Source of the DNA: Sandaracinus amylolyticus | GTDB lineage: Bacteria; Myxococcota_A; Polyangia; Polyangiales; Sandaracinaceae | DNA length: 64,000 bases | Reading direction: 5' to 3' | Assembly (NCBI RefSeq): GCF_000737325.1 | Contig: NZ_CP011125.1 | Coordinates: 4,650,001-4,714,000 of the forward strand | Part shown: positions 45,973 through 50,021 of the stretch, piece after piece | Numbering within the stretch: position 1 is the first letter of the stretch | Layout of the letters: each line of letters begins with the position of its first letter | Notes under the pieces: generated by a model | The model's database searches: none | Seen by the model: only the letters and a program-made list of their open reading frames with translations | What the model was told of the DNA's origin: nothing | Program-made: the position numbers and the translations under genes

Positions 45973-47292
45973 TCACTCCGAGCGGTCGCGCGCGACCGTC
46001 CCGGTCCAGCCTCGGGGCACCGCGTCGAGCGATCGATAGCGCTCGAGCAGCAGCGTCTGGCGGGACCGAAGGGGCACGTCCTGCCCCGCGACGATCACGT
46101 GGGTCGGCGCGCTGGTCGTCTCGAACGGATCGCCGCTCCACACCACCAGGTTCGCGCGGCGCCCCGCGGCGATCACGCCGTGCTCGCGCATCCCGAAGAC
46201 CTCGGCGGGCAGCGACGTGACCGCGGCGAGCGCGGCATCGGGATCCATGCCCCACGCGATCGCGTTGCCCGCTTCCTGCCGCAGGTTCCGCGCGTCCCAC
46301 GCGCCCGGCGACATCAACATCACGCGCACGCCGGCGCGCGAGAGCAGCGCGGCGTTGTCGTAGCGCGCGTGGAGGCGCGAGAAGCGCTCGGGCAGGTTCG
46401 TCATCGCCTGCACGATCACGGGCACGTTCGCGGCCGCGATCTGCGGCGCGACCATCCATCCTTCTTCGACGCCCGCGAGCACGATGCGCAGCCCGTACTC
46501 GCGCGCGAGCGCGATGGTGCGGACGACGTCGATCGCGCGCGACACCCTGATCACGACGGGGATGCGGCCGGCGAGCGCCTCGCCGACGCGCTCGAGATCG
46601 AGGCGGCTGACGTCGGTGTCGCGGAAGTCACCGCGATCGAACGCGGCGCGCTGGCGGGCGTAGAGCCGCGCGTCGTCGAGCAGCTCGCGCAGCCGCGTGA
46701 TCGCGCTCGAGCGCGCGCCGCCCGCGGCGTCGATGCCCTCGTCGTTCAGGCTCACGTGGAGCGCGAGCTGCGGCGTGAGCACCGCGTCGGTGCTCACCGT
46801 GGACGAGGGGCCGAGCAGATCGGCCCACGCGCTCGTGCCCGGGACGAGGCCTCCTTCGGGCACGCTGGTCACGCTCGTGATCCCGCCCAAGCGCGCGACC
46901 GGGATCAGCGTGGAGAGCGGGTTGTACCCGTCGGCGGCGGAGAACGCGGCGCGGATCGCGTCGGCGTCGTCGTCCTCGGGACCGGTGTCGCGGGCCGCGC
47001 GCTCGAGCTCGATCTCCTCGAGGCCGAGCGCGGTCATCGTCGCGACGAAGCCGGGCGTGATCACCGCGCCGGTCGCGTCGATCACCGTGGCGCCGGCCGG
47101 GGCTGCGAGGCCCGCGCCGACCGCATCGATGCGATCGCCGCGCACGATGACGGTCGCGTTCTCGATCGGCGGGCCGTTGCCGGGGCGCACGGTCGCGCCG
47201 GTGATCGCGATCGTCGTGGTCGGGCGGCGCTGCGCCGACGTGGGGGTCGTGATCGCCAACAACGCGATCACCGCGAGCGCGCGGAGCTTCAT
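45973..47292 (-). CDS. Amidohydrolase-fold protein lacking metal ligands
   Basis: 439 residues with a signal peptide (MKLRALAVIALLAITTPTSAQ). The overall pattern is an imidazolonepropionase-like amidohydrolase (VIVRGDRIDAVGAG, IDATGAVITPGF, QEAGNAIAWGMDPDAALAAVTSLPAEVFGM, RANLVVWSGDPF). The catalytic HxH is gone: in the place where the neighbour has IIDTHSH, this one reads FVATMTA (82-88), and the HSD motif is replaced by MSP. It is therefore probably a pseudoenzyme. Its start overlaps the stop of the intact paralogue upstream (ATGA), so the two are co-translated. Confidence 0.82.
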   Translation of the reverse strand: MKLRALAVIALLAITTPTSAQRRPTTTIAITGATVRPGNGPPIENATVIVRGDRIDAVGAGLAAPAGATVIDATGAVITPGFVATMTALGLEEIELERAARDTGPEDDDADAIRAAFSAADGYNPLSTLIPVARLGGITSVTSVPEGGLVPGTSAWADLLGPSSTVSTDAVLTPQLALHVSLNDEGIDAAGGARSSAITRLRELLDDARLYARQRAAFDRGDFRDTDVSRLDLERVGEALAGRIPVVIRVSRAIDVVRTIALAREYGLRIVLAGVEEGWMVAPQIAAANVPVIVQAMTNLPERFSRLHARYDNAALLSRAGVRVMLMSPGAWDARNLRQEAGNAIAWGMDPDAALAAVTSLPAEVFGMREHGVIAAGRRANLVVWSGDPFETTSAPTHVIVAGQDVPLRSRQTLLLERYRSLDAVPRGWTGTVARDRSE

Positions 47293-48869
47293 CGCGCACC
47301 TCCGTCCTGCTCGAGCTGGAGATCGAGGCCGAGCTCGAAGTCGCTGTCGCGCGACGCGCCGTCGCGCGCGCGGTCGTACTCGCGCAGGCCGTCGACGAAC
47401 ACGAGATCGGCGTGCGCATAGACCGAGAACGGGCTCGCCGACCACACGACGACGTCGGCCATGCGTCCGGGCTCGAGCGTGCCCGCCATCTCGTCGATGC
47501 CGAGCGTCCACGCGGCGTTCGTGGTGATCCAGCGCAGCGCTTGGTCCTCGGTGATCTCGATCCCGGCGCGACGGCCCGCCGCCATCGCCTTACCGGCTTC
47601 CTGGTTGAGCCGCTGGATCAGCATCGGCGAGTCCGAGTGCAGCACCGCGCGCGTGCCCGCCTCGGTGAGCAGCGCGAGGTTCTCGGGGATCGCGTCGAAG
47701 GCTTCCATCTTGAAGCCCCACCAGTCGGCCCACGTGGAGATCGAGATCTCCTCGGCCGTGAGCAGGTCGCGGATCTTGTAGGCCTCGACCGCGTGGTGGA
47801 AGCCGCGGATGCGGAAGCCGAACTCGCGCGCGATCTCGATCATGCGCGCCATCTCGTCGGCGCGATAGCAGTGCATCTGCACGAGAACGCGGCCCTCGAT
47901 CGCGCCGAGCAGGAGCTCGTGACCGAAGTCGCGCGTGGGTGGCGCGGGCGCCGGGCCGGGATCCTCGGGGTGCTCCTCGGGCGCGCCGGGATCGTCGCCT
48001 GCGCCCTCCCCTCCGGCGCCCGGGATCTCGCTCGCGTCGCGCTCTTCGGTCTGCTCGCTCTGCCAGCGCGCCCAGCGCTCCTGGCGGATCGACCAGAGGC
48101 GGTAGGTCTCCTGCCAGTCGCTCCACGAGCGGCCGTACTCGATCGCTTCCTGGAACGCGCGTCGATAGCCCGCGACGTTGCCCATGCGCGTCGAGGGCTC
48201 TTGGTGCTGGCCGCCGTAGACGCGCTTCGGGTTCTCGCCGCACGCCATCTTCATCGTGTCGGGCGCGCCGGGCAGCTCCATCTCGCTCGAGGTGCGGCCG
48301 AGGTGCAGCTTGTACGTCTCGCCCGCGCCGCCGATCAGGTTCGCGCTGCCGGGCAGCACCTGGATCGTCGTGATGCCGGCGGCGAGCGCGCGCGCGAGCG
48401 CGGGATCCTGCGGCCAGAACGAGTCGGACGCGCGCACGTGCGGCGTGACCGGGGCGGTCGCTTCGTTGCCGTCCTCGTGCGCCTGCGCTTCGGGCACGGG
48501 GTAGACGCCCATGTGCGAGTGCGTGTCGATGATCCCGGGCGTCACGAAGCGTCCGGAGACGTCGATCACCTCGGCGCCTTCGGGGATCGTGATCTCGCTG
48601 CGCGGACCGACGGCGCGGACGAGCCCGTCCTCCATGACGACGACGCCGTCTTCGATGGTGCGGCCGGTCGCGGTGAGCACGGTGCCTCCCGCGAGCACGA
48701 CGAGCGGGGACTCGATCGTGGGCACCGAGGGACGCTGCGCCTGCCACGGGAGGAGCGGCGGCGCGGGGCTCGGCTCGGGCGCCGATGGACGCGCGGCGCG
48801 GAGGCCGGCGCCGCCACACGCGCCGAGCGCGAGGAGGACGAAGATCGCGGAGAGACGTGTCGCACGCAT
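47289..48869 (-). CDS. Amidohydrolase family lipoprotein
   Basis: 526 residues. Lipobox LGAC gives Cys18, so it is a periplasmic lipoprotein. Metal ligands are present: HSH as H117 and H119 in TPGIIDTHSH, candidate carboxylated K187 in YKLHLG, H333 (VQMHCYRADEM), H358/H359 (RGFHHAVE) and D413 in LHSDSP. An unusual Gly/Glu/Pro-rich insert occupies about 280-312. It probably hydrolyses a cyclic amide or peptide-like substrate outside the cytoplasm. Overlapping partner downstream is a degenerate copy; they may form a complex. Confidence 0.87.
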   Translation of the reverse strand: MRATRLSAIFVLLALGACGGAGLRAARPSAPEPSPAPPLLPWQAQRPSVPTIESPLVVLAGGTVLTATGRTIEDGVVVMEDGLVRAVGPRSEITIPEGAEVIDVSGRFVTPGIIDTHSHMGVYPVPEAQAHEDGNEATAPVTPHVRASDSFWPQDPALARALAAGITTIQVLPGSANLIGGAGETYKLHLGRTSSEMELPGAPDTMKMACGENPKRVYGGQHQEPSTRMGNVAGYRRAFQEAIEYGRSWSDWQETYRLWSIRQERWARWQSEQTEERDASEIPGAGGEGAGDDPGAPEEHPEDPGPAPAPPTRDFGHELLLGAIEGRVLVQMHCYRADEMARMIEIAREFGFRIRGFHHAVEAYKIRDLLTAEEISISTWADWWGFKMEAFDAIPENLALLTEAGTRAVLHSDSPMLIQRLNQEAGKAMAAGRRAGIEITEDQALRWITTNAAWTLGIDEMAGTLEPGRMADVVVWSASPFSVYAHADLVFVDGLREYDRARDGASRDSDFELGLDLQLEQDGGAR

Positions 48870-49490: not shown

Positions 49491-50021
49491 TCAGGCTCCG
49501 CCTTCGAGGGCGCGGGCCTTGCGCCGCGCGCGCTCGAGCACCGGGATCATGGAGCGTTGCGCGTCGAGCGGCTCGATCAGCGTGAGCTCGTCGTGCTCGT
49601 GGCGGTCACGCGCCGCGGACAAGAAGAGCTCGAGCGCGCGCTCGGGGCCCACCAGCTCGAGGCTGCGTCCGGGCAGCGCGATCACCGCGGTGCGCGCGCG
49701 CATCTTCTCGAGCGTGTCGAGCACGTCGTCGACCGACGCGACGAACGCGGTCTCGTCGAACGCCGCGCGCGGCCCGAGGCCGAACAGGAAGAGCTTCTCG
49801 AACGCGAGGCGCGGGCGCGCCGGGATGAGCACGCGCTCGCCGAGCGCGCCGCGCATGCGACCGCGCACCAGCAAGCGCGAGAGTCGTCCGCAGAGGCGCC
49901 AGTCGACGAGCCCCGCGGCGCCGCGCAGGGGGCGCTCGTCCTGGAAGAACGGGAGCGCGAGCGCCTCGGAGCGGAGCCCGTCGAGCGCGCGGAGGTCGGG
50001 CGCGACGAACCGGAGCTCCAC
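49491..50021 (-). CDS. Stand-alone M17 leucyl-aminopeptidase N-terminal domain protein
   Basis: 176 residues corresponding only to the N-terminal macro-like domain of M17 aminopeptidases: MELRFVAPDLRALDGL, PFFQDERPLRGAAGLVDWRLCGRLS, EKLFLFGLGPRAAFDE. The catalytic metal domain is absent and the reading frame ends cleanly, so this is a domain-only protein, not a truncation. Its role is unknown. It follows nusB after 6 bp. Confidence 0.78.
   Translation of the reverse strand: MELRFVAPDLRALDGLRSEALALPFFQDERPLRGAAGLVDWRLCGRLSRLLVRGRMRGALGERVLIPARPRLAFEKLFLFGLGPRAAFDETAFVASVDDVLDTLEKMRARTAVIALPGRSLELVGPERALELFLSAARDRHEHDELTLIEPLDAQRSMIPVLERARRKARALEGGA

Follow-up and report, generated by a model that had tools for sequence, protein, structure and literature searches.

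Conserved pairing of a live amidohydrolase with a paralogue lacking the metal site, a probable enzyme-pseudoenzyme pair of Sandaracinus amylolyticus and bacteria of several phyla

Why would a bacterium keep, next to an intact amidohydrolase gene, a second copy whose metal site is gone? This question is raised by two genes on the reverse strand of the window (the whole stretch of 64,000 nucleotides of the Sandaracinus amylolyticus genome that was analysed), here named P1 and P2 (Table 1). A preliminary description of the locus stated that the two overlap by ATGA, and these four bases are indeed common to both ORFs. The neighbours of the pair in the window (an FHA protein, NusB, riboflavin genes and a dCTP deaminase) give no functional hint. 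Next to nusB, a 176-aa protein (49491-50021, reverse strand) was identified that possesses only the N-terminal domain of a leucyl aminopeptidase (M17_N) and no catalytic domain. No second copy of P2 is present in its own genome (10.33 Mb, single contig). The reading preferred here, to which we give a probability of about 0.68, is that P1 and P2 form an ancient obligate enzyme-pseudoenzyme pair in which P2 is the dead subunit that P1 needs.

Table 1. Features of the P1-P2 locus, with positions in the window
Feature	Position	Strand	Basis or conservation
P1, live amidohydrolase, probable lipoprotein	48869-47289	(-)	526 aa open ORF
P1 lipobox L15-G16-A17-C18 (LGAC)	48816..48827	(-)	by eye
P1 H117-S118-H119 (HxH)	48513..48521	(-)	invariant in untruncated P1 relatives
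P1 K207, candidate carboxylated lysine	48249..48251	(-)	K in 62/62 live, 1/80 dead copies
P1 H333, beta-5 metal ligand	47871..47873	(-)	alignment with relatives
P1 H359, beta-6 metal ligand	47793..47795	(-)	alignment with relatives
P1 D413, beta-8 catalytic aspartate	47631..47633	(-)	alignment with relatives
ATGA overlap, P2 start over P1 stop	47289..47292	(-)	sequence
P2, dead paralogue (pseudo-amidohydrolase)	47292-45973	(-)	439 aa open ORF
P2 residues 1-20, Sec-type signal peptide (TSA|Q)	47233..47292	(-)	by eye
P2 M86-T87-A88 replacing HxH	47029..47037	(-)	alignment
P2 H179 replacing K207	46756..46758	(-)	alignment
P2 R249 replacing H333	46546..46548	(-)	alignment
P2 G274 replacing H359	46471..46473	(-)	G in 71/80 dead copies
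P2 P329 replacing D413	46306..46308	(-)	alignment

Both proteins score above the gathering thresholds of Pfam Amidohydro_1 and Amidohydro_3, and their cores align as had been described: BLASTP (E 2e-15 over 173 residues) and profile-profile comparison (probability 100% over 370 columns) show them to be paralogous. Their description as imidazolonepropionase-like is only loosely right, the scores against the hutI equivalog (NCBIfam; 56 bits for P1, 40 bits for P2) lying far below the cut-off of 298. The nearest solved relative of both is instead TM0814 of Thermotoga maritima (PDB accession no. 3ooq), an uncharacterised protein on which no paper was found in the open-access literature; in both sequence and fold it outscores other amidohydrolases by a wide margin. 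It is the best PDB match of P1 (E 2.8e-67) and also matches P2 in sequence (E 2e-28). The predicted structure of P2 (pLDDT 91.3, pTM 0.90) has 3ooq as its closest neighbour (Z 49, rmsd 2.6 over 369 residues), ahead of a second-ranked entry with a Z of 26; the neighbours were drawn from Foldseek candidates only, so that missing families prove nothing. Given a pLDDT of 91 and a Z of 49 to 3ooq, the barrel-plus-sandwich fold of P2 is predicted to be intact though its site is gone, and with fold and family profile together P2 belongs to the superfamily. An insert of about 60 residues, acidic and proline-rich, precedes beta-5 in P1. Exported dipeptidases of COG1228, namely the Lys/Arg carboxypeptidase Cc2672 (3mtw) and Xaa-Pro dipeptidases (3n2c, 2qs8), share superfamily and fold (Z about 25) but are much more distant from P1 and P2 than TM0814. 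Their ligand order is the same as that of P1, and to our knowledge they act without a dead paralogue.

Alignment with TM0814 and relatives places all six metal-site residues in P1, so that it holds the conserved set of the binuclear amidohydrolase subtype (HxH, Lys, His, His, Asp); TM0814 has HHHHD and a lysine at the same position. None of the six is retained in P2, where the corresponding positions read MAHRGP, and P2 therefore lacks the metal-site residues of the superfamily. The ligands listed earlier for P1 (HxH, H333, H359 and D413) are present, except that H358 is no ligand candidate, because TM0814 and one P1 relative have E at this position. The losses reported for P2 (the HxH histidines and D413) are real, and where three had been noticed six exist: H333 and H359 are gone as well, and the counterpart of K207, in P1 the expected carboxylated lysine of a binuclear site, is a histidine. 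It could be proposed that P2 is itself active through a rearranged metal site, given that some dead copies retain a residue or two out of the six, or have histidines close by. No ligand position is conserved among the dead copies, the beta-6 histidine being glycine in 71 of 80, and an alternative metal site was rejected for want of a conserved ligand set; we regard this explanation as very improbable.

To examine conservation of the arrangement, the P2 alignment was used to scan 84,980 species genomes; from the 234 relatives found, 80 loci were retained. The scan patterns (NLRQEAGN and [VL]W[ST]GDPFE) contain no ligand positions, and the ligand census is therefore unbiased by the scan. Both genes lie side by side in 13 genomes of the order of the window, its own genome included, and the relatives at about 60% identity are Sandaracinus and other Sandaracinaceae. 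P1 is found directly upstream of P2 on the same strand in 79 of the 80 loci, the 80th being at a contig edge; the 79 belong to Myxococcota, Gemmatimonadota, Acidobacteriota, and Bacteroidota and allies. Among the 77 pairs of separate genes, a P2 start codon at -4 is possible in 61, at -1 in six and at 0 to +20 in seven, while in the other two loci (two MAGs of one genus) P1 and P2 form a single reading frame. All five scored ligands are present in 85 of 86 P1 rows (the exception is a contig-end fragment). Of the 92 P2 rows, 71 have no ligand and the other 21 have one; eight genomes occur twice in each set. Retention of the ligands in the second protein, which would have spoken against the pairing, was looked for across several phyla and was not found. 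P1 is better conserved than P2. The census strongly supports the enzyme-pseudoenzyme pairing proposed in the preliminary description, with a loss that is real and conserved: the dead copy is kept as dead and is co-inherited with the live one.

In a phylum-wide sample, the P2 profile matched 146 of the 282 Myxococcota genomes at E up to 1e-10 and, in the phylum to which a Salinivenus relative belongs, 142 of the 247 genomes at E up to 1e-30. Both are upper figures for P2, as live copies match too. Wider sub-groups were taken from sixty fetched stretches, three of which were 10-base placeholders. Each tandem examined among these wider relatives consists of a live and a dead copy, or of dead, live and dead. 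All six residues are present in each of the 62 live rows, and the 80 dead rows hold none of them (41 rows), one (35) or two (4). Many Bacteroidota encode an N-terminal dead domain fused to a live domain, followed by a separate dead gene. Dead-live-dead trios were seen at loci L135, L136, L137, L171-L175, L195, L199-L201 and L203, many of them with the first dead and the live domain in a single protein of about 950 aa.

Loci with a lone gene were considered as counter-examples to the pairing. Five Bacteroidota with a lone dead gene each carry a dead-live fusion elsewhere in the same genome, and these were rejected on that account. At two Bacteroidota loci (L193 and L209), an ORF resembling alpha/beta-hydrolases lies downstream of the lone dead gene on the same strand. 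In one genus of Myxococcota, live and dead copies are located on different contigs, and both are retained in five genomes. The lone live genes of Myxococcota (L188-L192 and L236-L239) likewise do not count against the pairing, as they fall in a separate single-gene group resembling TM0814 or share its signature. This small group of single live genes has no dead partner, and TM0814, treated as a single live protein, groups with it and not with the pairs (support 91; looser when ligand columns are removed). Since such single live genes exist, the fold needs no dead partner in general.

In a tree of 142 rows, all 80 dead copies are set apart by a single branch with support 99. After removal of the ligand columns and their neighbours and addition of seven outgroup amidohydrolases, a branch with support 95 still separates the dead copies from the outgroup and from the live copies, whether single or paired. 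Both trees come from quick searches, and some of the outgroup branches are long. As the dead copies form one branch even without the ligand columns, the history fits one ancient loss of the metal site followed by co-inheritance. The mirror-tree correlation over 73 P1-P2 pairs is 0.89 (reached in 0 of 2000 permutations), to which shared species history contributes. Comparison with a congener gave a dN/dS of 0.149 for P2 and 0.147 for P1, so the P2 gene is under purifying selection and is not decaying. Loss of all six metal-site residues might by itself be taken for the mark of a decaying duplicate, a pseudogene in progress, yet a dN/dS of 0.15, an intact predicted fold and the same loss across phyla in one branch are set against this. 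On dN/dS and conservation we take that explanation as refuted and give it practically no credence.

Purifying selection would also be compatible with P2 having a new, metal-free role of its own, as another enzyme or a binding protein, and being merely co-transcribed with P1, and P2 does retain residues conserved in its own family (e.g. E277, W279, D388 and E391). The positions conserved in all dead copies are, however, mostly glycine or proline or are common to the live copies, and form no new catalytic set. Dead domains occur fused on either side of the live domain, and both copies are retained even where they are unlinked, which suggests that P2 is a dependent partner. We consider an independent function unlikely. 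Conserved live/dead pairing across several phyla points to a dead copy that is probably required as a partner and not junk.

Under the obligate-pair reading, P1 would be a metal-dependent amidohydrolase of the TM0814 type with the residues of a binuclear site, exported and probably lipid-anchored. It would contain metal and act on a peptide-type substrate. P2 would be its obligate dead subunit, derived from one ancient duplication, which has kept the barrel-plus-sandwich fold and lost the metal site. Its translation would be coupled to that of P1 on a shared mRNA. P2 most likely hetero-oligomerises with P1, which would rely on it for stability, substrate binding or completion of the active site; P2 would then be a structural activator, in the manner of prozyme or the alpha subunit of MPP. 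The complex that had been proposed for the window pair is indirectly well supported, by the fusion in one genus, the possible -4 starts in 61 of 77 pairs, co-retention of unlinked copies and the dead-live fusions of Bacteroidota. A model of the natural P1-P2 fusion reached a pLDDT of only 65.6 and did not resolve the live half, and no interface is therefore claimed; it was built on the only clean alignment, in which P1 had two rows. In the other fusion alignments, which had P1 and P2 rows, the P2 rows fell wholly or partly on the P1 half. A search for surface or interface residues unique to dead copies found none that is invariant across the family. Overlapping starts and one-to-one pairing would also agree with P2 serving P1 as a dedicated chaperone, anchor or regulator, acting in assembly, in localisation or as an allosteric sensor, and pseudoenzyme regulators have precedents (PMC6221367). 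Fixed covalent fusion and the dead-live-dead trios match constant subunits better than a transient factor, and such a role seems to us distinctly unlikely.

The preliminary description placed the complex at the periplasmic side, and the N-termini of the window pair fit this. P1 carries a lipobox, and a lipobox-like motif was detected with a simple pattern in 47 of 73 testable P1 relatives; the N-terminus of P2, judged by eye, is Sec-like (MKLRALAVIALLAITTPTSA-Q). The claim does not extend to all relatives: in 25 of 77 loci P2 has just 7-10 residues ahead of the domain and no normal signal peptide (L046:5977 and 24 other loci; one such start is MIAFLLAQ-TIAITGG), while P1 in these loci mostly has a lipobox. 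In those lineages, such short leaders are hard to reconcile with a complex in the periplasm, and they are the main weakness of that model; either P2 takes another export route there, or the two proteins differ in compartment. Programmed frameshifting that would join P1 to a short-leader P2 was considered, and no obvious slippery heptamer was seen by eye before the ATGA. Twin-arginine-like leaders, not of the Sec type, were observed in P2 of L044, L045, L052 and L074 (RRQLLG, RRRELL, SRREWL and SRRNVL).

The best-known enzyme-pseudoenzyme pairs are those of eukaryotes and of M16 peptidases. Within the amidohydrolase superfamily, pseudo-dihydroorotases and CRMPs are metal-less members that serve as structural parts, and we know of none that is paired with a live paralogue from the same operon. 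The dihydroorotase of Aquifex, of the same superfamily, is inactive alone and active in its complex with ATC (PMC3880350); unlike P2, its partner is no paralogue. In trypanosomes, the dead paralogue prozyme heterodimerises with AdoMetDC, which needs it (PMC6221367); this eukaryotic system has an unrelated fold, and activation is shown there and only proposed here. The closest parallel in layout is that of live/dead M16B pairs (MPP beta/alpha, SPH2681/SPH2682 and TTHA1264/1265), which also occur as single-chain fusions (PMC12731061, PMC11266112) and of which the dead alpha subunit of MPP is essential (PMC11266112). Like P1-P2 they are two-gene live/dead paralogues with fusions, whereas their fold and catalytic motif are unrelated. 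No description of a pair of the P1-P2 type was found in the open-access literature, subscription papers lying outside the search. Pseudoenzymes of the superfamily and live/dead pairs elsewhere are already known, and it is a within-superfamily pair of this breadth that was not found in the searchable literature. There is a slightly better than even chance, in our estimate, that these genes represent an ancient, widespread and so far undescribed class of envelope amidohydrolases, in which a live subunit is obligately accompanied by one dead paralogue (Myxococcota, Gemmatimonadota, Acidobacteriota) or two (Bacteroidota) derived from a single loss of the site, and in which the live site is completed or controlled by the dead subunit.

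The pair lies in a very large and much-used hydrolase superfamily and occurs in hundreds of genomes of several phyla, where its members are presumably annotated as two ordinary amidohydrolases; the pair cautions against extending an enzymatic annotation to half of these genes. The obligate-pair reading predicts that the live gene, expressed alone in a heterologous host, would frequently fail. The natural one-, two- and three-part architectures offer a clean system for testing what a dead subunit contributes.

A hint of function is provided by Gemmatimonadota, where two co-directional M16 peptidase genes precede the pair in 17 loci with a complete region, and partly in six more. One of the two M16 proteins possesses HLFEH and the other lacks HxxEH. 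M16B peptidases are known live/dead heterodimers (PMC12731061, PMC11266112). The four-gene row, whose live amidohydrolase is a lipoprotein, would thus hold two live/dead pairs in what is likely one operon. The upstream M16 pair, together with the dipeptidase-like superfamily neighbourhood of P1, suggests that P1-P2 probably degrade peptides in the cell envelope. The complete M16/M16/live/dead rows were seen at L046, L054, L059, L062, L064, L066, L067, L070 and L071, and further at L073, L075, L076, L082, L086, L094, L096 and L104. At L046, the M16 homologue without HxxEH carries a DUF3108 domain at its C-terminus.
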